Virus record (IMG/VR): IMGVR_UViG_3300047560_001489
Coordinates: 1 to 44,109 of that record
Strand: one strand, 5' to 3'
Length of the DNA: 44,109 nt
DNA from: a virus
Positions 2,987-37,894 of the stretch are shown here, in pieces. Positions within the stretch are counted from its first letter, which is position 1; each line of letters begins with the position of its first letter. The position numbers and the translations under genes are program-made. The notes beneath the pieces were generated by a model. That model was not told where the DNA came from, ran no database searches, and saw nothing but the letters and a program-made list of their open reading frames with translations.

Positions 2987-4615
2987 ATGCCAATCCAGAA
3001 GATTAAATCCGGCCGTGTAATTACGGTTCCAGTTGACCTATTCATAGGTGAAAAAGGTATCCTGTTTTACGATGAAGAAACAGGCGAATTAAGACTTTCT
3101 GATGGCGTAACACCTGGTGGTATACCTGTTAGCAGTGGGAGTGGGGGAGGAACAGGGCTCCGGGGCCCGACAGGCCCTACTGGTCCACAAGGCGATCAAG
3201 GAGCAACAGGTAATAGAGGGCCAACCGGCCCCCGTGGTGATCAGGGTATTTCGGGAGTTCAGGGACCACAAGGACCTAAAGGAGACACCGGAAGTACTGG
3301 AGCAACAGGACAAACTGGAGCCCAGGGCATTCCGGGACCCAAAGGAGATACTGGAGCGTCAGGCCCCTCAGGACCTTCAGGACCTCAGGGAAGTATAGGA
3401 CTTTCAGGCCCTTCGGGCCCTTCGGGCCCTCAAGGGGAAGCTGGAGTAAGTAATGTTCCTGGTCCAACGGGTCCAACGGGTCCAACACCAGAAACAATAG
3501 TCTACACAGCACAATCTGCTAACCTTACAAACGGTGTTTATGTTTCAGGTAGCGTCGCCGACATTCAAACATTTAACGATGGAAATAGTTATTCATTAAC
3601 AGACGGATCACTTACGGCCCCTGCTTGGATATTTGATGTTACTTTCACCGATGTAGTGTCATTTAACCAGGTTGATCTAAATATATCGTATACTACAAAC
3701 TCTGGACATACAGTTTATGTTCAATTGTTTAATAAAAATACAGAAGCATGGGATAACGTAGGATTCTATAATGGATTGAACGGATATCAACAGTTTCAGT
3801 TAGGTGTTATTTCGAGTAGTGCATACATTGATGCAGGGACAGTATTAGTACGATTATATCATAGTAATACAGGAAATCCTGCCCACCAAACATTTATCGA
3901 TTACATTGCAGTAGTAGATTCTATTGCTGGCGGCCAGGGCCCTAGAGGCCCTGCAGGTCCTTCCGGTCCTAGAGGTCCTTCCGGTCCCGGGGGAATATTG
4001 GGAGATGTTAGTTTATACAGTCTAATTACTAACACTTCTACCGGTACAATCAGTAACATTACTTCTTTAAAATTTGATACAGATGCCGGGTTTTCACTAA
4101 CAGATTTAGGTGGTGGTTCTGCCCTTGTTGGCATGAATTCTACTTTCAAATATATTACAGTTGACGGTCAAGACCAGCTAGTAGCAGAAGGACTTGATAC
4201 ATTAAGGTTAGTAGCAGGTGATGGCATTTCTATCACAACAAATGCGGTAGATTCTCCTCAAAGTATAACAATTAGCGCAACGGGTGGCACGGGCGGTACG
4301 GGCGTTATTAAAACTTTTAATATTTTAAATGCATTTACTGCGCCATTAATAGGAACATCAATTTATGTTCCATCAAGCACAGATTACATTCGTTCTGTAC
4401 AATTAACAAATAGCACCTCGGTTCCATTTGATTTAACCGTTGGTTTATACAGAAATAACGAACTTTTAAGTTTTTACACGATTCCAGCAGGGCAAATTAC
4501 GGCTAGATATAATGCAGATAATTATAGAATTACATCTAGCGATTATATAACCGTAAATGTGGTAGCCGGGCAAGGGTCAAATTTTAGTTTAGTACTTCTT
4601 AACGTAAATTTATAA
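2987..4615 (+). CDS. Collagen-like tail fibre / adhesin
   Basis: A 542-aa protein. Residues 1-50 form a small N-terminal domain (ending [15 protein letters not shown]) seen on many phage fibres as the virion-attachment module. Residues about 57-170 are near-perfect Gly-X-Y collagen repeats rich in GPTGP, GPSGP and GPQG. A globular beta-rich segment follows (about 175-312), then a short second collagen stretch (about 315-337) and a beta-rich C-terminal domain. Gly-X-Y segments in phage fibres form collagen-type triple helices. Bacterial and phage collagens lack hydroxyproline and are stabilised by Pro, Thr and charged residues. It heads a block of virion genes and is likely a trimeric host-recognition fibre. 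Confidence 0.85.
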
Positions 4616-4676: not shown

Positions 4677-7589
4677 ATGGCAACACTTAATGAACTTGGT
4701 AGAAACAGTGCAAGTATTACATATGGTCCTTCGGCAACAGGTGCTGAAATGTGGCCAACATTCGCACTATTCGATCAATGGATGAGAAATGATACTCTTC
4801 AGGGAACCGCAACAGCGTCAAGCACAACTGTAACTGGTGTAGGCAGTGTTTATTCTACACAGGTAAGAGCAGGAGATGTAATTATGATCGCAGGACAGAT
4901 GAGAACTGTTCTTGCCGTTGTAAGTGATACTAGTTTTACTGTTACTTCAGGATTTAGTCCTGCAATCAGTATTGCGAGTTCAGTAAAAGTGATCAACACA
5001 AGTTTGACAGGAACCGTTACAGGAACCGTAAGAGGAAGTACAACTGGCGTAGTAAGTGTTACAAACGGATCGGCTACAGTTACTGGAGTTGGAACATATT
5101 TCTTAAGTGAGTTTACAAGTGCTGTTGCTACAACTAACTTAGCAGGTACCGTTGCTGTAGGAACTGACGGTGTTATCACTGGTTCTGGTACAAGTTTTAA
5201 TACAGGGGCTGACGGTAGTGCAAACAGATTACAAATCGGCGATAGTATTTTGGTTGGTACAGCTTACTTTGTAGTTGCTAGTGTTAGTAGTGACACAAGT
5301 GCTACAGTAGTTACCGCGCCAGCGGTTGCTATTTCAGGCGGAACAACAATCGCTAAAGCTAATAACGGCGTAGTAGGTCGTACTGTTGTTATTAACGGCC
5401 GTGTCCGTCAAATTACTGCCATTGCTAGCAATACCAGTATGACACTAAACGCGGCCTTAGATTTCACCGACAGCAACTTAAAGATTAAAGCATACCCTCG
5501 TGGAACACTAACAGTATCAGCTGGTAGTGCTAGTGTAACAGGAAATAGTACAAACTTCAGTTGGGATCTAGTAACAGCTGATCAAGTGTGGATTGGCGAC
5601 GAATTAAGAACATTCAGCTTTAGTGCTAATGCCACAACCGCAGCTACACTAACTGACTACACGGGTTATAGTGGAACAGCAGTTAACGTTCTACGTCAGG
5701 CAGTAACGGCTATCCCTTTCCACAGAGATGATAGTTATTTAACAGGTTCTGGAACAGCATTTACAACTGAACTACGTGTCGGTGATGATTTAATTATCGA
5801 TGGAACTGAGTGTACTGTAACGCAGATTCTTAGTGCAACATCTTTTAGAGTTAACTTAGACTTCACACATAGTCCAAGTAGTGCAACAATTTATAAAAAG
5901 AAAAAGATTCACGGTTATGTCCTAGAAGGAACAAGAGAAGGTGTTGGTAACGGTGGTAAGCTAAGTACCACTACTACATCTGTTCTAGCAGCAGGTACTG
6001 TATATCCAGCAGGTAATACAACTCTTACAGTAGCAAGTGCAACTGGCTTTTCTCAATATGGTTTTGTCAAGATTCAAGGTGCAGGCGGCCCAGCAAGATC
6101 ACTGACTGGTCAGATTAACACAATTTCAGCCAGTGCAACCATAACAGGTACCAACACATTGTTTACAACTGAACTGCATGTTGGTGCTGAAGTTGCAATC
6201 GGTGGTCAATACTTGACTGTTCTTGCAATTGCAAGTGATACAAGTATGACGGTTTCTGCTACTATGTCAGTAACTGGTCCAACACCAATTTACAGAACAA
6301 CACCGTTGTACACGTATATTGCTTCTATTGCAGGTTCTATTTTAACACTTGGACATCCGCTCAGGGCAACAATATACAGTACTGGAGCAAACGCCCCACT
6401 TGTATATACGCCGAGTGCGGCGGGCGATTATGTAGAATATGTTTACAGTGCTCCTAATAAAACGGCAGAAGCATCAACAACATTGTTTAATACCAGTTTA
6501 GATCGTAAGTATACGGCTTTCCGTTTCTATCCATTAGCAACAGGTGGTGGTACAGGTAACGCTATTACCACTGCTGGTAGCGCATATAATCTAGTTGTTT
6601 ATGAACGCTGGACAGCGGCCCATGGTCTTGCTAACGGCGTCGGTATTAATAAAGCTGACCTGAGCGACAGCACGTCAGCAGTTAGCGGTGTTACCGATCA
6701 AACATCAATGACTCAAACAACAGGTGGATTCTTATATCTATTTGCTAAACCTCGTTATGTTCTAGTTCAAGGAAAATCATTCTCTAACGTAGCAACACAA
6801 TGGTTAGGATGTTTAGAGTTCGAACGTGCTCAACCAGAAGATAGCGGAACCGGTCTTGGAACAAGTTCTGGTGTAAGTATCTATACAGGTGCTCCAGTTT
6901 CAGGAACACCGGGTGTAAGTCCATGGCCTTGCTTTGCGTACTTCAATGGTAATAGATTCCCAGTTGGAAGCCAGCAAACGCCAACATTACCGATTGCACA
7001 TACACAGGGTGTACATGGAGGCATCTTAGCCTGCCCACGTATCCGCGTAAGTACAGGCGACTTAGTTGGTGCCAACGCACACATTTACTCAGCTTGTACA
7101 ATTACAACAGGACGTTGGGGACACTTAATTGAAATTGGTGGTGCTGGTTCATACACTGATCCAGGTTCACAAGCAACTGGTGTTCTAACTGGCACAGCTA
7201 ACACACTATGGCAACCGCACGTTGGACACTTAGTTCCTGTTTATACTAACGTATATAATAGTAAGCGTTTCATGTTTAGTCCTGTAGTTGTTCTTGGACC
7301 AGCGTATGACCCAGATATCCGCGGACGTATTTACGGATTGAAAGTTATTCCAAGTGCATTAGGAACATTAATGGATACCGTAAGTGTAACAGTTGATAGT
7401 AATGACTTCTACGACTCAGCTCAGTCGGCTGCTGATCACTGGGTTGTGACAGCATCTGTATCAACATACAGATTCTCACTAGGTGGAACTAACTTCCAAA
7501 GTACACGTTCATTAGAAGATAGTAGTACTATTGCTGCCAACACTGAAGCCGCATTTACAAACAGTTTCCGTTGGGCAGTTCCTGCTTAA
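4677..7589 (+). CDS. Large repeat-containing virion structural protein (970 aa)
   Basis: A 970-aa protein preceded by a strong ribosome binding site (AAAGGAGA, 8 bases upstream). The N-terminal half repeats a beta-rich module of about 50 residues with pattern TVTGVGTxF...VGDxIxIxGxxxxVxxIxSDTSxTV, seen at about residues 41-96, 120-205, 225-290, 345-400 and 475-530. The C-terminal third is non-repetitive and ends in a Tyr/Phe-rich region. Composition (Thr, Ser, Val, Gly, few charges) is typical of phage fibre and capsid-surface proteins. A related repeat copy occurs in the 968-aa protein downstream. It is followed by a strong terminator. Probably a tail or head-surface structural protein made late; its exact position in the virion is unknown. 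Confidence 0.75.
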   Translation: MATLNELGRNSASITYGPSATGAEMWPTFALFDQWMRNDTLQGTATASSTTVTGVGSVYSTQVRAGDVIMIAGQMRTVLAVVSDTSFTVTSGFSPAISIASSVKVINTSLTGTVTGTVRGSTTGVVSVTNGSATVTGVGTYFLSEFTSAVATTNLAGTVAVGTDGVITGSGTSFNTGADGSANRLQIGDSILVGTAYFVVASVSSDTSATVVTAPAVAISGGTTIAKANNGVVGRTVVINGRVRQITAIASNTSMTLNAALDFTDSNLKIKAYPRGTLTVSAGSASVTGNSTNFSWDLVTADQVWIGDELRTFSFSANATTAATLTDYTGYSGTAVNVLRQAVTAIPFHRDDSYLTGSGTAFTTELRVGDDLIIDGTECTVTQILSATSFRVNLDFTHSPSSATIYKKKKIHGYVLEGTREGVGNGGKLSTTTTSVLAAGTVYPAGNTTLTVASATGFSQYGFVKIQGAGGPARSLTGQINTISASATITGTNTLFTTELHVGAEVAIGGQYLTVLAIASDTSMTVSATMSVTGPTPIYRTTPLYTYIASIAGSILTLGHPLRATIYSTGANAPLVYTPSAAGDYVEYVYSAPNKTAEASTTLFNTSLDRKYTAFRFYPLATGGGTGNAITTAGSAYNLVVYERWTAAHGLANGVGINKADLSDSTSAVSGVTDQTSMTQTTGGFLYLFAKPRYVLVQGKSFSNVATQWLGCLEFERAQPEDSGTGLGTSSGVSIYTGAPVSGTPGVSPWPCFAYFNGNRFPVGSQQTPTLPIAHTQGVHGGILACPRIRVSTGDLVGANAHIYSACTITTGRWGHLIEIGGAGSYTDPGSQATGVLTGTANTLWQPHVGHLVPVYTNVYNSKRFMFSPVVVLGPAYDPDIRGRIYGLKVIPSALGTLMDTVSVTVDSNDFYDSAQSAADHWVVTASVSTYRFSLGGTNFQSTRSLEDSSTIAANTEAAFTNSFRWAVPA

Positions 7590-23369: not shown

Positions 23370-25703
23370 ATGATCACAGTGGTCAAGCGTAACGGACATC
23401 GCGTTCCGTTAGATATCGCAAAAATACAGAGACAGGTAGCTTATGGATGTAGAGGAATTGACGGCGTTAGCCCCTCGATGATCGAAATTAAAGCACAAAT
23501 AGAATTACATGACGGAATGTCGACAAAGACCATAGACGAGCTATTACTCAAGGCCATGGTTGACTTAATCGACGAAACTGAAAATCCAGAAATTAATAAT
23601 GTCAATTATCAATACGTAGCAGGCAGGCAAAAAGTCTCTATGCTACGCAAAGAAGTATATGGGACATACGAACCTCCTGCACTTTACGACATTGTAAAGA
23701 AGAATGTGGAACTTAGTATGTACACTAGTGAACTACTAGACTGGTACACAAAAGAAGAATGGGATATAATTGATCTGTTCATCGACCACGCAAAGGACGA
23801 ACAATATACCTATGCCGCTATTGCACAATTAGCAGAAAAGTATCTTGTACAGAATCGCGCCACAGGTCAAATTTATGAAACACCCCAGGTACGTTACGCT
23901 ATAGCAGCCGCCACAGCGTTCCATAGCGAACCTGCAGATAAAAGGTTAAAATATGTCAAAGAATACTACGAATGTGCTAGTGATGGTCATTTCACTCTTG
24001 CTACCCCTGTGCTGGCTGGCCTCGGCACTACTACAAAGCAGTTTAGTTCTTGTGTTCTCATTAGTAGCGACGATACTTTGGATAGCATATTTGCAGCTGG
24101 CGAAATGATGGCCAAATATGCTTCAAAACGAGCCGGAATTGGTCTCGAAATAGGCAGAATTCGCCCCTTAGGTGCCCCAATTCGCAACGGAGAAATCAAA
24201 CACACGGGTATGATACCATTCTTGAAGAAATGGTTTGCTGACCTGCGTAGTTGCAGTCAAGGTGGCATTCGTAATGCTAGTTGTACAGTTACATTCCCTG
24301 TATGGCACGCTCAATTCGAAGACCTTATTGTTCTAAAGAATAATCAAGGTACAGAAGAAACTCGTGTACGTCAAATGGATTATAGTGTTGTTGTTAATGC
24401 CATGTTCTGGCGCCGCTATAAGAACGGTGAGAATATTACATTGTTCGATCCACACGAAGTTCCAGACTTGTACGAAGCATATTACAGAGACAGTGCAGAA
24501 TTTGAGGCATTATACTTACAGTATGAGCAAGATAAGACAAAGAAAAAGAAAGTTGTATCGGCGGATGAGATATTCAAAAATGGTATCCTTAAGGAACGCA
24601 CTGATACGGGCAGAATATATTTGGTCAATATTGATAACGTTATCAACCAGGGTCCGTTCGACACGACGGTGGATCCGATCTATCAATCAAATCTGTGCCA
24701 AGAAATTCTGTTGCCCACAAAGCCTTTCCAAAGAATTGAAGATCCTACAGGACGCATTGCTCTTTGTACACTTGGGTCAATCAATTGGGGTGCTTTCCGC
24801 AACCCTCAAGAAATGCGTAAGGCTTGTAGAGTATTGGTTCGCTCGCTCAGCAACTTACTAAACTATCAAGACTTCTTAAGTGTTCAGAGTCGCCTTGCCA
24901 ATAAAGACTTTGAACCATTAGGTGTTGGCATTACTAACCTGGCATACTGGCATGCTCGTCGTAGTTACAAATATGGTACTGCCGAAGCACTTGCCGAAGT
25001 TAAGCGTTGGATGGAACACCAAGCATATTACCTAACAGAGACTAGTGTGGAACTTGCCCAAGAAAGAGGGGCCTGCGAGCGTAGCCAACACACTTGGTAC
25101 GGTAAGGGAGTATTTCCTTGGGAACGCCGTAATGCAGGAGTAAACGAATTAACTGATTTTACTCCTAGCATGGATTGGGAACCACTACGTGAGCGTATGA
25201 AGAAGTACGGTATTCGTAATGCCACACTAATGGCAGTAGCACCAGTAGAGTCCAGCTCAGTTGTATTAAACTCCACCAACGGAATTGAAATGCCGATGGA
25301 ATTGATTTCTGTGAAGGAATCGAAAGCTGGATCGTTTGTACAGGTTGTACCTGAATACAAACGTCTAAAGAATCGTTACCAATTGATGTGGGACCAACAT
25401 GATTGTGTTGATTATTTAAAGACATCAGCAGTACTAGCCGCATACATTGATCAGTCATTATCAACAAATACATTCTACAACCCTGCTCATTATGGTGGCA
25501 AGGTTCCTGGAACAATTATTGCAAAGAATCTTATGCTTGCCTACAAGTGGGGCGTTAAGACCATCTACTATAGTCTAATTAATAAAGTCGGCGCAAAGGC
25601 CAGTGTGACAAATACTAACGTTGTTACAAACGTCAACGCCGCAGATAATGTTGTTATCTACGAAGTATTAGAGGACGACGATTGCGAAGCGTGTAAATTA
25701 TAA
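23370..25703 (+). CDS. nrdA: Class Ia ribonucleotide reductase, alpha subunit
   Basis: A 777-aa protein reducing ribonucleoside diphosphates to deoxy forms with NrdB. The N-terminal ATP-cone (VVKRNGHRVPLD...) allosteric activity domain is present. Active-site cysteines are recognisable in SSCVLISSDD, NLCQEILLP (with the catalytic N, C and E) and LCTLGSINWG. The C-terminus EACKL supplies the shuttle cysteine pair re-reduced by the glutaredoxin encoded 2.7 kb downstream. Length and motifs match the E. coli NrdA type. The gene order is nrdA, aceA, a tiny zinc protein, nrdB. It has a weak ribosome binding site. Confidence 0.97.
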   Translation: MITVVKRNGHRVPLDIAKIQRQVAYGCRGIDGVSPSMIEIKAQIELHDGMSTKTIDELLLKAMVDLIDETENPEINNVNYQYVAGRQKVSMLRKEVYGTYEPPALYDIVKKNVELSMYTSELLDWYTKEEWDIIDLFIDHAKDEQYTYAAIAQLAEKYLVQNRATGQIYETPQVRYAIAAATAFHSEPADKRLKYVKEYYECASDGHFTLATPVLAGLGTTTKQFSSCVLISSDDTLDSIFAAGEMMAKYASKRAGIGLEIGRIRPLGAPIRNGEIKHTGMIPFLKKWFADLRSCSQGGIRNASCTVTFPVWHAQFEDLIVLKNNQGTEETRVRQMDYSVVVNAMFWRRYKNGENITLFDPHEVPDLYEAYYRDSAEFEALYLQYEQDKTKKKKVVSADEIFKNGILKERTDTGRIYLVNIDNVINQGPFDTTVDPIYQSNLCQEILLPTKPFQRIEDPTGRIALCTLGSINWGAFRNPQEMRKACRVLVRSLSNLLNYQDFLSVQSRLANKDFEPLGVGITNLAYWHARRSYKYGTAEALAEVKRWMEHQAYYLTETSVELAQERGACERSQHTWYGKGVFPWERRNAGVNELTDFTPSMDWEPLRERMKKYGIRNATLMAVAPVESSSVVLNSTNGIEMPMELISVKESKAGSFVQVVPEYKRLKNRYQLMWDQHDCVDYLKTSAVLAAYIDQSLSTNTFYNPAHYGGKVPGTIIAKNLMLAYKWGVKTIYYSLINKVGAKASVTNTNVVTNVNAADNVVIYEVLEDDDCEACKL

Positions 25704-26923: not shown

Positions 26924-27007
26924 ATGGAACCATTCTGCCCTAAATGCCACACACGACATGGTGATAAACAGCCGTGCCCACACATACCACCTGGTGACTA
27001 CAAATGA
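26924..27007 (+). CDS. Tiny zinc-ribbon-like protein (27 aa)
   Basis: A 27-residue frame MEPFCPKCHTRHGDKQPCPH plus seven residues, with a CxxCH...H...CPH arrangement able to bind zinc. It starts 2 bases after the aceA stop and its TGA overlaps the nrdB ATG (ATGA), which argues that it is translated. Function unknown. Confidence 0.5.
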   Translation: MEPFCPKCHTRHGDKQPCPHIPPGDYK

Positions 27008-28104
27008 GTAAAGCACAATACGATTTTACAAAACCTACAAACTATCTAAAGCGTAAGATGTTTCTGGACCCAGAAGGTCCAGTTACAGTTCAGCGATTCG
27101 AAGAAGTTAAGTATCCTAAATTAAGTAAATTTGAAGAACTTGCTCGTGGATTCTTTTGGGTGCCTGAAGAAATTAGTTTAACCAAAGATAAAATGGATCA
27201 CAAGGAAGCTAGTGATGCTGTTAAACATATCTTTACCAGCAACTTACTACGCCAGACAGCATTAGACAGCATTCAAGGTCGTGCGCCTTTCCAGGTTTTC
27301 GGCCCGGTTTGCTCAATCCCCGAACTCGAAGCACTAACACTTACTTGGAGTTTCTTTGAAACCAGCATCCATAGTAAGAGTTACAGTCATATCATCCGTA
27401 ACGTATATGGAGTACCAAAAGATGAATTCAATAAGATTCATGACACAGCTGAAATTGCTGGCATGGCTGCTAATATTGGTCGCTACTATGAGGCTCTTCA
27501 TATTCTTAACAGCCGTAAAGAGTTGGGCGAAGACATTCCAATCTATACTCACAAGCGAGCAATATGGATGGCACTACATGCCTCCTACGCCCTTGAGGCC
27601 CTACGGTTCATGGTATCTTTTGCCACTTCATTGGCCATGGTAGAAAATAAGATCTATATTGGTAATGGTAACATTATCAGTTTAATCTTACAAGATGAAA
27701 TCCTGCACAGCGAGTGGACCGCTTGGATTATTAACAACGTAATCAAAGATGATCCAGAGTTTGTGGCAATTGAAGAAGAATGCCGAGAAGAAGTCTATGC
27801 CATGTATATAGAAGTGATTAAAGAAGAAAAAGACTGGGCAGATTATCTATTCAGGCGAGGCGTGGTAATTGGACTTAATGCACAAATTCTAAAAGACTTT
27901 GTAGACTATACTGCTTTTACTAAATTAAAAGATATAGGAATTAAGTATCTTGAGGAACATCCGAAAACTACTCCAATTCCTTGGTTTAACAAACATGTGA
28001 ACATTAATAAGAAGCAAACCGCATTACAAGAAAACGAAAGTACAAACTACGTTATTGGTGTAATGTCAGATGCTGTAGAACACGAGGAGTTACCGGATTT
28101 ATGA
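27004..28104 (+). CDS. nrdB: Class Ia ribonucleotide reductase, beta subunit
   Basis: A 366-aa protein providing the di-iron/tyrosyl radical for NrdA. The radical tyrosine is conserved in HSKSYSHIIRN (Y127), with ligands in ALDSIQGR (D88), WSFFETSIH (E119, H123) and the later QDEILHSEW (E, H). The C-terminal acidic tail (EHEELPDL) is the usual NrdA-docking peptide. Its start overlaps the tiny zinc protein stop, and its stop overlaps the next ATG, so the group is translationally coupled. Confidence 0.97.
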   Translation: MSKAQYDFTKPTNYLKRKMFLDPEGPVTVQRFEEVKYPKLSKFEELARGFFWVPEEISLTKDKMDHKEASDAVKHIFTSNLLRQTALDSIQGRAPFQVFGPVCSIPELEALTLTWSFFETSIHSKSYSHIIRNVYGVPKDEFNKIHDTAEIAGMAANIGRYYEALHILNSRKELGEDIPIYTHKRAIWMALHASYALEALRFMVSFATSLAMVENKIYIGNGNIISLILQDEILHSEWTAWIINNVIKDDPEFVAIEEECREEVYAMYIEVIKEEKDWADYLFRRGVVIGLNAQILKDFVDYTAFTKLKDIGIKYLEEHPKTTPIPWFNKHVNINKKQTALQENESTNYVIGVMSDAVEHEELPDL

Positions 28105-30782: not shown

Positions 30783-31175
30783 ATGGCATATTCGAATCAA
30801 GTTATTGACCATTATGAGAACCCACGAAATGTGGGTTCTTTCGCTAAAGATGATAGGTCAGTCGGTACCGGCATGGTTGGTGCACCTGCTTGCGGCGATG
30901 TAATGAAACTACAAATAAAGGTTGACCATGATACAGGTATTATTACAGATGCGAAATTTAAAACGTATGGCTGCGGATCGGCTATCGCAAGCTCGAGCCT
31001 CGTCACAGAATGGGTCAAAGGAAAAACACTTGATGAAGCAGGATCAATTAAAAACAGCCAAATCGCCGAAGAGCTAGCATTGCCTCCGGTTAAAATACAC
31101 TGCTCGATCTTAGCAGAAGATGCCATTAAGGCAGCAGTAGAGGATTATAGAAAAAAACATGATCTCGTTAACTGA
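30783..31175 (+). CDS. iscU: Iron-sulfur cluster scaffold protein IscU
   Basis: A 130-aa protein that assembles [2Fe-2S] clusters. All scaffold residues are present: C37, D39 (APACGD), C64 (YGCGSA), H106 and C107. The HscA-recognition motif LPPVK is at 100-104. Length and sequence are those of a full proteobacterial IscU, close to the betaproteobacterial form. The ribosome binding site AGGAG lies 7 bases upstream. Its 3' end overlaps iscA by 17 bases. No IscS, HscA/HscB, ferredoxin or IscR gene is visible here, so host partners would be needed. Confidence 0.97.
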   Translation: MAYSNQVIDHYENPRNVGSFAKDDRSVGTGMVGAPACGDVMKLQIKVDHDTGIITDAKFKTYGCGSAIASSSLVTEWVKGKTLDEAGSIKNSQIAEELALPPVKIHCSILAEDAIKAAVEDYRKKHDLVN

Positions 31176-31479
31176 ATCAGCTTCTAACAAAATAACCCAG
31201 ACTCTAAAGAAAAGAGGTAGTGGTCTTGGGATTAGAATTGGTGTAAAAACTACTGGTTGCAGTGGACTAGCCTATGTGTTAGAGTATGTAGATTTGCCCA
31301 GCCCAGAGGATCGCTGTGTAGATTGTGGCGACTGCAAAGTATTCATAGATCCAAAGAGTTGTCCTTACCTTCAGGGCATGACCATTGATTACGTAAAGCA
31401 AGGTCTGAACGAAGGATTTGAATTTAGTAATCCTAACGAAAGAGATCGTTGTGGATGTGGGGAGAGTTTTAGAATATGA
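31159..31479 (+). CDS. iscA: A-type Fe-S carrier IscA, with extra cysteines
   Basis: A 106-aa A-type carrier with the three signature cysteines (C34 in TTGCSG; C98 and C100 in DRCGCGESF). Unlike ordinary IscA it carries four additional cysteines, C53, C56 and C59 (CVDCGDC) and C68, where typical IscA has VFEDKGVKVVVDGKSL-type residues. The added CxxCxxC could bind metal or form disulfides. Overlaps iscU and shares ATGA with erpA. It likely passes clusters or iron to target proteins. Confidence 0.93.
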
Positions 31480-32607: not shown

Positions 32608-33192
32608 ATGATTGTCTATATTCATGGGGCAAGTGCCACTGCCGCCAGCTTCACACATATAAGGCAGTATGTTAGGGACTATTTCGAAGAACCCGATATC
32701 ATGCTCGAATATCGAAGCGAAAACGGATTTGCTAACAATCTTAAAGATATGCATGGAAAATTAGATGATGCTGAAAGATTATTTTTTATCAGTCATAGTC
32801 TAGGCGGAATATATGCTCTGCATTTAGCTAATCATTATTCTGAAACCACCCGGGGGGGTGTAAGTCTAAGCACACCATACGGCGGAAGTAAAGAAGCAGA
32901 CTTTGCTAGATATTTTTTACCTTTTAATCGTTTAATGAAAGACATAGGGGTTATGAGTGCTCCTATGCGAGAAGCCAGGAGCTTACCTGCACCCCCAAAT
33001 TGGACACAGGTTGTATCTACAGTTGGGCAGAGTCCTTGGATTAAAGACGACAACGACGGAGTAGTTACATTAGAAAGTATGAGATTTAGGGAAGACTTCG
33101 AGCAAATTGAAGTTCCATTAAATCACTACGAGGTTGTAATAAGCGATCGTGTGGTTGATATCATACTTGACAAGATCAAGAAAGTATTCTAA
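32608..33192 (+). CDS. Alpha/beta-hydrolase (lipase/esterase-like)
   Basis: A 194-aa alpha/beta hydrolase. It has an HG oxyanion motif (IHGASAT, residues 5-11), the nucleophile elbow SHSLGG (S64), a likely acid in KDDNDGVV (D147-D150) and catalytic H173 in LNHYEV. The NDGVVT..S arrangement is typical of PGAP1/lipase-like hydrolases. It may act on lipid or acyl esters, complementing the desaturase (speculative). Its stop is followed by a late promoter motif and the tmRNA. Confidence 0.8.
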   Translation: MIVYIHGASATAASFTHIRQYVRDYFEEPDIMLEYRSENGFANNLKDMHGKLDDAERLFFISHSLGGIYALHLANHYSETTRGGVSLSTPYGGSKEADFARYFLPFNRLMKDIGVMSAPMREARSLPAPPNWTQVVSTVGQSPWIKDDNDGVVTLESMRFREDFEQIEVPLNHYEVVISDRVVDIILDKIKKVF

Positions 33193-33200
33193 AATAAATA
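33193..33200 (+). promoter_or_regulatory. Late promoter-like AATAAATA upstream of tmRNA
   Basis: AATAAATA directly after the hydrolase stop, just before the first hairpin of the tmRNA acceptor piece. It matches the late consensus at 7 of 8 positions, suggesting the tmRNA is made late in infection. Confidence 0.5.
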
Positions 33201-33204
33201 CTTG

Positions 33205-33496
33205 TTATTGCTGTATGAAGCAAAGAGAAAAGTGTTCTGGACGCGGGTTCGACTCCCGCCAGGTCCACCATAAGCATGTTCTTTGAGGTCTTGGTCGTTA
33301 CCAGCGTGGCAAAAACGGCGACAGAGTGTGCTTATGATGGGCCTGCCATGGTTTCGACAGGGCAAAGAGTAACAGAGTGGACAGCACAGTAGGCTATGAC
33401 TTTAAATCAAGCAAAATCTATAGACGCAAACGACGATCTATTCGCAATGGCCGCTTGAGGCCTGCTGAGGGTGTAAGCCCAAGAAACAGAACTTAC
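33205..33496 (+). ncRNA. ssrA: Circularly permuted two-piece tmRNA, tag ANDDLFAMAA
   Basis: tmRNA rescues stalled ribosomes and tags the nascent peptide for proteolysis. The 3' (acceptor) half comes first: a small hairpin (33208-33223), P2 strand TGTTCTG (33233-33239), T-arm GCGGG-TTCGACT-CCCGC (33243-33259), acceptor CAGGTCC (33260-33266), A and encoded CCA (33268-33270). A 68-base intervening segment (33271-33338) begins TAAGCA and has TGCTTA near its end, so it closes on itself. The 5' half follows: acceptor GGGCCTG (33339-33345), D-loop GGTTTCGACA, P2 strand CAGGGCA (33358-33364). The 7-bp acceptor stem holds the G3-U70 pair required by alanyl-tRNA synthetase. The tag frame starts with resume codon GCA at 33426 and reads A-N-D-D-L-F-A-M-A-A, then TGA at 33456. 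TAGAC lies before the resume codon, like E. coli TAGTC. Mature ends are estimates. Confidence 0.95.
33426..33458 (+). CDS. tmRNA tag-peptide reading frame (ANDDLFAMAA + stop)
   Basis: Ten codons and a TGA within the tmRNA. The E. coli tag is ANDENYALAA. Here the ClpX-recognised C-terminus LAA is changed to MAA. GGCC / GGCC (33449-33452 with 33459-33462) can form the helix enclosing the stop codon, as usual in tmRNA. Confidence 0.93.
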   Translation, partial: ANDDLFAMAA

Positions 33497-33521
33497 AAAG
33501 GACCTTCGGGTCCTTTCTTTT
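33497..33521 (+). terminator. Rho-independent terminator after tmRNA
   Basis: Stem AAAGGACC / GGTCCTTT closing a TTCG tetraloop, then CTTTT. Confidence 0.92.
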
Positions 33522-33575
33522 GTCCAAATTTTATAAAACATGTAAACGTTCTATAAGGTTATGGCGTTATTATAT

Positions 33576-33617: not shown

Positions 33618-33821
33618 ATGAAAGTTATCGCAACTCTAATCGCTGGTTTGTTCGCAGTAAGTGCATTTGCCGCTGAACCTGCTAAGAAGGAAGAAAAGAA
33701 GGCTGATGCCAAGCCCGCCGCAAGTGCTCCTGCCACAGCACCAGCCGCACCCGCTAAGGCTGATGCTAAAAGCGCACCCGCTAAAGCCGAAGATAAAAAA
33801 GCCGAAACTCCTAAGAAGTAA
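33618..33821 (+). CDS. Secreted Ala/Lys/Pro-rich small protein (67 aa)
   Basis: The ATG at 33618 (MKVIATLIAGLFAVSAFA) is preferred over an in-frame ATG at 33561 because it has AAAGGA upstream and gives a classic Sec signal peptide. Predicted signal peptidase cleavage is after AFA (residue 18). The mature part is low-complexity A/K/P/E repeat (KADAKPAAS...KAEDKKAETPKK), likely disordered and periplasmic or envelope-bound. This signal peptide style is very common in betaproteobacteria (family experience), which supports host acquisition. Function unknown. Confidence 0.75.
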   Translation: MKVIATLIAGLFAVSAFAAEPAKKEEKKADAKPAASAPATAPAAPAKADAKSAPAKAEDKKAETPKK

Positions 33822-36270: not shown

Positions 36271-36678
36271 TTGACAAATAAACTTACATTAATAACTCCG
36301 CCTGATTTCTTTGAAAATGAAAATTATAGTATAATGTTTATTCATCTATCAGACGACGATCAGGCCAAGGTAAGTAAATGGCTTGCTGAAACTGAATTGA
36401 CTGAACATATCAATATATATTTTTATGATCATGAAATTGAGATACCTTGGCTTTTATATGCGTTGTCTAAGTGTGAGTATAAGTATATAGACTTAGACAG
36501 ACTTAATACTGCCACTGATGCCTTGAGTGGACACATATTAGGAAAAAACGATATTTACTATAAAATTAATGACGAAAACTTGTCGGCAATTTATCATTAT
36601 ATAAATCAGAATAGAATATCATCTGTTGAAAACTTCTTGCAGAAGGCACTAAATGAAAAAATCAGACCATCACTGTGA
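36271..36678 (+). CDS. Conserved phage protein (135 aa), TTG start
   Basis: A 135-aa acidic alpha/beta protein starting at TTG 36271, 2 bases after the previous stop, with AAAGG upstream. The first half resembles a small Rossmann-like or ATPase-accessory pattern (IMFIHLSDDDQAKVSKWLAE), but no nucleotide motif is clear. It overlaps clpX by 26 bases, so coupling to ClpX production is likely; an adaptor role is only a guess. Confidence 0.6.
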   Translation: MTNKLTLITPPDFFENENYSIMFIHLSDDDQAKVSKWLAETELTEHINIYFYDHEIEIPWLLYALSKCEYKYIDLDRLNTATDALSGHILGKNDIYYKINDENLSAIYHYINQNRISSVENFLQKALNEKIRPSL

Positions 36679-37894
36679 TTTTTGTAATAAAAGCAAAGAC
36701 GAAGTTGAGAAACTTATTGTCGGTGATAATGCAGCCATATGTAATGATTGTGTAGATCTTTGTATAGACATACTTAAAGATGAAAAAGTAAAAACATTTC
36801 CTAACGAGAAAAAACTTCTTAATCCTGCACTTATCAAAGAGTACCTTGATGAATACGTAATAGGCCAGGAAGAGGCTAAAATTGCATTAAGTGTTGCTGT
36901 AAGTCAACATTTTAAAAGGATTAATAATCCTAGCAAAGATATTGAGTTAGAAAAAACAAATGTGTTGTTATTAGGTCCTACAGGCTGCGGTAAGACTATG
37001 ATGGCACGTAAAATTGCTCAATATTTAGACCTACCGTTTGCTATTTGCGATGCTACTGGTATTACAGAAGCCGGGTATGTGGGCGATGACGTTGAGAGCA
37101 TTCTTACTCGACTCATAAATGAAGCAGATGGTGACATAGAGAAAGCCAGTCGAGGTGTTGTTTATATTGATGAAATTGATAAAATTTCGAGAAAAGGTGA
37201 AAGTGCTAGTATTACTAGAGACGTAAGTGGAGAAGGCGTCCAGCAAGGTCTTCTAAAAATGATTGAAGGCAGTATTATGCGTGTCCCTAGTACCGGAAAA
37301 AGAAAACATCCCAACGGCGACATCCAAGAAATAGATACCCGGGGGATCCTATTCATTTGTGGTGGTGCATTTGTCGGAATAGATAAAATCATAGGGCAAA
37401 GAACAGGAGCCAAATCAGTAGGTTTCCATGCCAATGTTGAAAATAAAAATGATGATGAGCTTTACAGAAATGTAATAACCAAGGACTTAATCAAATTCGG
37501 TCTTATTCCTGAATTTGTAGGAAGGTTTGGAATTATAACCAACGTAGAAGAATTAAATGAAGACCAAATGGTTCAAATTTTAAAAAATACAAAGAACAGT
37601 ATTGTAGATCAATACAAATACATGTTTGAACTTGACGGAATTAAATTAGAATTCGATAATGATGCGTTAAAAGAAATAGCGTCAAAGGCCAAAGAACTTA
37701 AAACCAACGCAAGGGGACTCAAGAGTATTGTAGAAAAAATTCTACTTCCATACCAATTTGATGCAGTTAACCTTGTTGAAAGAGGGTTAGAATCAATTCG
37801 GATAAGTAAAGATACAATTGATGGCAGACCTGCCGTTATGATTTTCAATAACAATAAAAATGAGCAAAAACAACAAACCACTAATGGGAAATAA
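36653..37894 (+). CDS. clpX: ATP-dependent unfoldase ClpX
   Basis: A 413-aa AAA+ unfoldase. N-terminal zinc domain: C8, C11, C30, C33. Walker A GPTGCGKT (108-115), Walker B VVYIDEID (169-176), pore-1 loop GYVG (141-144), pore-2 RKH (217-219), sensor-2 ARGLKS near residue 354. The ClpP-docking loop is VGF (256-258), replacing E. coli IGF. All unfoldase parts therefore look functional, and the docking loop is kept. Cellular ClpX unfolds substrates such as ssrA-tagged proteins and feeds ClpP. Few phages are known to carry ClpX. It overlaps the genes on both sides (26 and 35 bases), the last being bS21. Confidence 0.97.
   Translation: MKKSDHHCDFCNKSKDEVEKLIVGDNAAICNDCVDLCIDILKDEKVKTFPNEKKLLNPALIKEYLDEYVIGQEEAKIALSVAVSQHFKRINNPSKDIELEKTNVLLLGPTGCGKTMMARKIAQYLDLPFAICDATGITEAGYVGDDVESILTRLINEADGDIEKASRGVVYIDEIDKISRKGESASITRDVSGEGVQQGLLKMIEGSIMRVPSTGKRKHPNGDIQEIDTRGILFICGGAFVGIDKIIGQRTGAKSVGFHANVENKNDDELYRNVITKDLIKFGLIPEFVGRFGIITNVEELNEDQMVQILKNTKNSIVDQYKYMFELDGIKLEFDNDALKEIASKAKELKTNARGLKSIVEKILLPYQFDAVNLVERGLESIRISKDTIDGRPAVMIFNNNKNEQKQQTTNGK

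Follow-up and report, generated by a model that had tools for sequence, protein, structure and literature searches.

A complete, circularly permuted (i.e., two-piece) tmRNA gene of betaproteobacterial type is carried by a 44,109-nt stretch of DNA, here 'the window' (IMG/VR record IMGVR_UViG_3300047560_001489), from a large uncultured phage, with the parts of the gene and the phage clpX described below all on the plus strand. The tag peptide encoded by that gene, ANDDLFAMAA, ends in Met-Ala-Ala (MAA) rather than in Leu-Ala-Ala (LAA). Probably this phage tmRNA works normally, that is, in conjunction with host factors, with its tag an ordinary ClpX degron and MAA a conservative, recurrent variant of the usual ending. 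A preliminary description of the same DNA had proposed instead that MAA is a phage alteration which shifts tagged proteins between host and phage ClpX, and it is against this proposal that much of the following evidence is weighed.

Anatomy of the tmRNA gene

The gene along with its promoter and terminator spans 33167–33516. The putative promoter is of sigma-70 type, TTGACA-17-TAAAAT (33167–33195), identified solely as a match to consensus (11 of 12 positions), and it overlaps the 3' end of an open reading frame at 32608–33192. The 3' tRNA-like half follows (33204–33270), as read from the sequence and an Rfam alignment, consisting of a T stem (33243–33247 with 33255–33259), the acceptor 3' strand (33260–33266), a discriminator A (33267), and an encoded CCA (33268–33270). 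An intervening segment (33271–33338) would, from the permuted architecture, be expected to be lost in maturation. The mRNA-like half (33339–33496), read in the same way as the tRNA-like half, contains a TTTCGAC motif, the tag, and downstream helices, and it begins with the acceptor 5' strand, GGGCCTG (33339–33345), which pairs with 33260–33266. Within that pairing G33341 stands opposite U33264 as G3:U70, the identity pair for alanine charging. An intrinsic terminator, i.e., a hairpin with an eight-pair stem and then CTTTTGT, completes the gene (33497–33516). Found together, then, are the attributes of a permuted tmRNA: a tRNA 3' half preceding the mRNA half, acceptor strands that pair, G3:U70 and CCA, and an in-frame tag that runs from a GCA resume codon to a stop codon with Ala-Ala at its end.

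The sole RNA gene which ARAGORN reports in the window is this permuted tmRNA (33178–33549, plus strand, tag ANDDLFAMAA*). Rfam model RF01850 (beta_tmRNA) matches 33153–33520 with 134.9 bits (E 3.7e-41; gathering score 84), and RF04321 (tmRNA_permuted) matches with 132.8 bits (threshold 47), scores which exclude a chance match. With the betaproteobacterial permuted tmRNAs of these two families the window tmRNA shares the permuted gene, the two halves, the TTTCGAC motif, and an AND...AA tag, but it differs from their cellular members in being phage-borne and in having a tag not found in cells. Its score (135 bits) also is below that of most cellular RF01850 members, which range from 104 to 336 bits among 15 sampled, with 14 of the 15 over 157.

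The tag and its third-last residue

The tag frame, GCAAACGACGATCTATTCGCAATGGCCGCTTGA, occupies 33426–33458 with the codons GCA AAC GAC GAT CTA TTC GCA ATG GCC GCT TGA. ARAGORN, the DNA itself, and the Rfam alignment all place it exactly, to the base, where the preliminary description had, and with the MAA ending that had been claimed. The methionine codon, ATG (33447–33449), is one base from the leucine codon of LAA (ATG/CTG). No published effect of methionine at this antepenultimate position was found, and a benchmark study of ssrA degrons (PMC8512704) yielded nothing usable on MAA or LAA endings.

An identical tag in close bacterial relatives would have counted against the preliminary description, but among species genomes of bacteria and archaea, approximately 85,000 in number, none has ANDDLFAMAA. 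The pattern AND[D/E/N/K]x[F/Y]AMAA, however, occurs on 57 contigs of those genomes. Permuted cellular tmRNAs confirmed by ARAGORN include those with tags ANDERFAMAA (Candidatus Accumulibacter and other Rhodocyclaceae) and ANDENFAMAA (Gallionellaceae), while confirmed one-piece tmRNAs encode ANDDNYAMAA (Granulosicoccus) and ANDDSFAMAA (Succinivibrionaceae). All share the third-last methionine with the window but differ from it in other residues, and the latter two differ as well in being one-piece rather than two-piece.

With the search pattern left open at the third-last position, 399 genomes of the order Burkholderiales display mostly leucine, plus five isoleucines, four valines, and a single methionine, the latter from the genome that served as search centre and which was picked for its methionine. 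Just 15 of the 399 have tmRNA of permuted type, with 14 readable tags: eight with Leu, five with Ile, and one with Met (that of the search-centre genome). AMAA is likewise what the consensus of RF01850 spells (...GCaaUgGCCGCcUAA). The premise that cellular tags end almost always in LAA thus holds for bacteria overall, given 57 AMAA contigs in approximately 85,000 genomes, but misfits the permuted betaproteobacterial type, given Ile or Met in 6 of 14 tags along with an AMAA consensus. Third-last methionine, that is, is rare across bacteria, yet it is not peculiar to phages, and with Met, Ile, and Val all found in cells whose tmRNAs are of this type, a phage alteration that redirects substrates between host and phage ClpX finds no support here. 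One further cellular permuted tmRNA (locus L333 of genome G252, 1452–1812) may have the tag ANGDQYLNVA, the ARAGORN reading of which differs.

RNA structure rather than protein function could in principle account for the codon, with the codon drifting, since its bases lie in or beside a hairpin at the tag's end, and with selection on the peptide minor. Folded locally, the 54-nt tag segment (-16.5 kcal/mol) is predicted to form such a hairpin (33442–33468), which encloses the final codons of the tag, places the stop codon in its loop, and pairs GGCC at 33449–33452 with GGCC at 33459–33462. The A and T of the ATG codon sit in a bulge, so exchange between ATG and CTG would cost no base pair, and the same local prediction yields a hairpin with the stop codon in its loop in most relatives. 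When the complete mRNA half is folded to minimum energy the hairpin nonetheless is absent, and as a cause of the codon change RNA structure was set aside, the hairpin being seen in the local fold only. The residues found before Ala-Ala, moreover, are only Leu, Met, Ile, and Val, which RNA structure alone does not require. Such drift is a highly improbable explanation.

The phage ClpX

A phage ClpX, as also had been claimed for this DNA, is indeed present 3.2 kb downstream of the tmRNA (36653–37894, plus strand). It is full-length, at 413 amino acids, as seen with Pfam, with alignment to an E. coli ClpX structure (chain 8e91), and with an alignment of 81 proteins. What places it among ClpX unfoldases are a C4 zinc domain, an AAA module with Walker A and B motifs, GYVG pore-1 and SITRDVSGEG pore-2 loops, an RKH loop, and a sensor-2 arginine. 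The ClpP-docking loop, which reads VGF, is of IGF type, and both it and the ssrA-binding loops are intact.

Recognition of the ssrA tag by ClpX is dominated by the tag's final Ala-Ala and carboxylate, and six ClpX residues are critical to it: Y153, V154, T199, V202, R228, and H230 (PMC7652416). With E. coli ClpXP, KM rises only modestly when the antepenultimate residue is mutated (PMC7652416), which does not favour viewing MAA as a redirecting change. The window ClpX retains every one of the known recognition residues, T199 and H230 included. Among it and 80 viral relatives, i.e., the 81 aligned proteins, Y153, V154, V202, R228, the GF of the ClpP loop, and the sensor-2 arginine are invariant, whereas position 199 is Thr in 65 and Ser in 16 and position 230 is His in 74.

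These variable positions may be compared with the tags of the same loci. Six of seven MAA-tagged loci have T199 with H230 and the seventh has Ser-His, while among 46 LAA-tagged loci 36 have Thr-His, eight Ser-His, one Thr-Tyr, and one Thr-Asn. As Thr-His is found in 6 of 7 of the former and 36 of 46 of the latter, there is no sign of co-adaptation between tag and ClpX. A shift between ClpX proteins thus goes unsupported, the recognition residues being alike in phages with MAA and with LAA. Nor, among these tag-bearing loci, are those residues associated with MAA as would suit a ClpX specialised for it, though other residues could still matter, and a change in ClpX specificity tied to MAA was rejected as an explanation on that lack of association.

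Tag diversity in a family of ClpX phages

Searching viral contigs with the phage ClpX returned, among the matches listed, 80 loci with 62–84% identity (L211–L290). Of the 70 loci with at least 9 kb of sequence upstream of clpX, 53 have a tmRNA there, 3–10 kb away, as found with a profile of the mRNA half, which detects many family tmRNAs that ARAGORN misses. In total 30 different tag peptides are seen, e.g., ANDSQFALAA, ANDAYFGEDRLAA, ANASNDEVWALAA, ANDELYSMAA, ANDELYSIAA, ANDSVYSVAA, ANDEQFLMAA, and AANDDAYLMAA. Distinct tags ending in Ala-Ala have as third-last residue Leu in 21, Met in five, Ile in one, and Val in one, with none charged or polar; two of the 30, ANDELFAMVA and ANDDTFLLAANA, do not end in Ala-Ala.

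Placed on a quickly built ClpX tree, the tags require at least 37 changes as whole peptides and at least 11 changes of their third-last residue, counts that rest on a rough tree with many open forks and on records which are not independent. That tags simply follow the ClpX tree was rejected, since close ClpX relatives carry unrelated tags, as with L229 (ANDELYSMAA) beside L232 (ANASNDEVWALAA). As judged by sequence comparison, then, the family's tags change independently of ClpX.

The third-last methionine might nevertheless be adaptive, with the tag tuned to the phage ClpX, or tuned away from host ClpXP, ClpAP, or an adaptor, and with the phage thereby controlling the fate of tagged proteins. 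The tmRNA-clpX proximity and the tags' high diversity would fit with this, as would the presence of ClpP in six (those of L224, L247, L277, L278, L281, and L282) of 37 family records, many of the 37 being fragmentary; one of the six has a tag that ends in MAA (L247). The adaptive reading is unlikely, however, given the four invariant recognition residues, changes at T199 (to Ser) and H230 that do not track MAA, and quite different tags on close ClpX relatives. MAA is found as well in cells and in phages without a detected ClpX: several MAA-tagged phages have none in their records while LAA is the tag ending in most members of the ClpX family, so a shift towards phage ClpX is not supported either. 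Adaptation would have to involve features beyond the known ClpX recognition residues, e.g., ClpA, adaptors, or the central part of the tag, which varies.

L247, a 322-kb record, has a tmRNA (AANDDAYLMAA), ClpX, and ClpP together. L262 has tandem mRNA halves (profile matches at 3529–3657 and 4245–4364), with tags ANAANDEVFALAA and ANDELFAMVA, the latter thus ending in MVA. In L248 the tag of a tmRNA near 4694–4832, ANDDTFLLAANA, extends beyond Ala-Ala, perhaps as a weakened degron or perhaps as a misread frame.

Origin of the tmRNA

The AMAA pattern is found on 32 viral contigs, unrelated phages among them, with an ARAGORN tmRNA in 20 of the 32 (e.g., ANDDVYAMAA and ANDNYYAMAA), versus at least 120 viral matches to the equivalent LAA pattern. 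In 2.9 million viral contigs the only identical or near tag is that of phage L291, ANDDLYALAA, whose tag DNA is two bases from that of the window (TTC/TAC and ATG/CTG). Over 66 nt the tRNA-like half matches that of phage L259 (tag AANDAVWALAA) at every base (100% identity), and its identity to that of L271 (ANDESYALAA) is 98.5%. The nearest relative of the mRNA half is L012 (ANDDVYAMAA; 84% over 161 nt), with L291 (84% over 154 nt) and L002 (also ANDDVYAMAA) likewise among the nearest. The two halves thus have different nearest relatives and the gene is, in this sense, a mosaic, which indicates, so far as sequence comparison can, exchange of tmRNA halves among phages.

An alternative is inheritance of the tag from a host resembling Rhodocyclaceae or Gallionellaceae and possessing an MAA tmRNA. 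These groups share the permuted type and AMAA tags, and among cells it is an Accumulibacter MAA tmRNA (L043) that the mRNA half matches best. That match nonetheless is 81% over just 83 nt, within a small cellular set that is enriched for MAA, versus 84% over approximately 160 nt for the much nearer phage tmRNAs. Sister phage L291, furthermore, has LAA, and none of the approximately 85,000 species genomes has ANDDLFAMAA itself. Inheritance from such a host is therefore quite unlikely, and recent host origin of the tmRNA was rejected on the same two comparisons, the sample of cells being limited. With phage relatives nearer than cells, the window tmRNA is part of a phage tmRNA pool.

A betaproteobacterial host would be suggested by the RNA type. 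Host was sought as well via isolates, with no structural-protein relatives of the window phage found among 50,697 phage records and with ClpX at most 54% identical to that of phage isolates.

Proposed working of the phage tmRNA

On the preferred reading, i.e., normal working with host factors, the phage tmRNA would be transcribed on its own and its transcript processed by host enzymes into two pieces. Host alanyl-tRNA synthetase would charge it via G3:U70 and CCA, and host SmpB along with EF-Tu would deliver it to stalled ribosomes. Dependence on host SmpB is assumed because SmpB is found in none of the 37 family records, many of which are fragmentary. The ribosome would then resume at GCA, appending A(ANDDLFAMAA). 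As its terminal Ala-Ala is preserved, and as methionine is a conservative replacement for leucine, this tag is proposed to remain a degron for ClpX. Host ClpXP would degrade the tagged proteins, as probably would phage ClpX docked on host ClpP. The third-last residue would be a labile hydrophobic position (Leu, Met, Ile, or Val), one presumably changed often, through point mutations as well as through phages exchanging halves of their tmRNAs.

Relation to known phage systems

Phage-encoded two-piece tmRNA is known from the marine methylophage Melnitz and from other aquatic phages, with 402 mostly aquatic tmRNA phages possessing 133 unique tmRNA structures, of which 53 are two-piece types (PMC9004378). 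To these phage tmRNAs the window adds one more. Melnitz resembles it in carrying a complete permuted tmRNA, but that tmRNA is of alphaproteobacterial type and is tied to a glutamine riboswitch, whereas the window's is of betaproteobacterial type with its own sigma-70-like promoter and with clpX downstream. Large phage genomes can possess tmRNA plus Clp genes, as does the jumbo Sinorhizobium phage AP-J-162 (PMC11242549), or tmRNA plus SmpB, as among tmRNA-bearing huge phages (PMC7162821); in the parts of these two sources consulted, neither a conserved tmRNA-clpX neighbourhood nor tag diversity is described. Agrobacterium phage Atu_ph07, as listed in the portion seen of the former, has clpX without tmRNA (PMC11242549). 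Within a partial coverage of the literature, no published account of a conserved tmRNA-clpX neighbourhood with diversified tags was found.

By itself the MAA ending departs only mildly from the usual, and it is the family around it that represents a 'natural experiment': a single lineage in which tmRNA and ClpX have been kept as neighbours while tags have come to number 30, their [L/M/I/V]-Ala-Ala end being nearly constant. A comparison of these tags would reveal which positions really are needed by ClpX, ClpA, and adaptors. The family could serve too as a test of what phages use trans-translation for, whether ribosome salvage, recycling of host proteins, or control of degradation. A speculative and rather unlikely extension is that this is a large aquatic phage family with its own tag-and-degrade module (tmRNA and ClpX, sometimes ClpP, with SmpB from the host), one in which tags are swapped and mutated, MAA being one state, such that host ClpXP, ClpAP, or adaptors would recognise tagged proteins differently than does the phage unfoldase.

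Other genes of the window and of related loci

Just downstream of the tmRNA, at 33618–33821, the window encodes a short protein that begins much like a signal peptide and whose body is rich in Ala, Pro, and Lys. Auxiliary metabolic genes are found at 1995–2705, 23370–25703, 27004–28104, and 31159–31479, with products consisting of a fatty acid desaturase, the two subunits of ribonucleotide reductase, and Fe-S_biosyn, a protein of iron-sulphur assembly. Near clpX in L246, L272–L276, and L288, ARAGORN reports amber-reading (CTA) 'tRNA-Pyl' genes, which possibly are suppressor tRNAs associated with stop-codon recoding.
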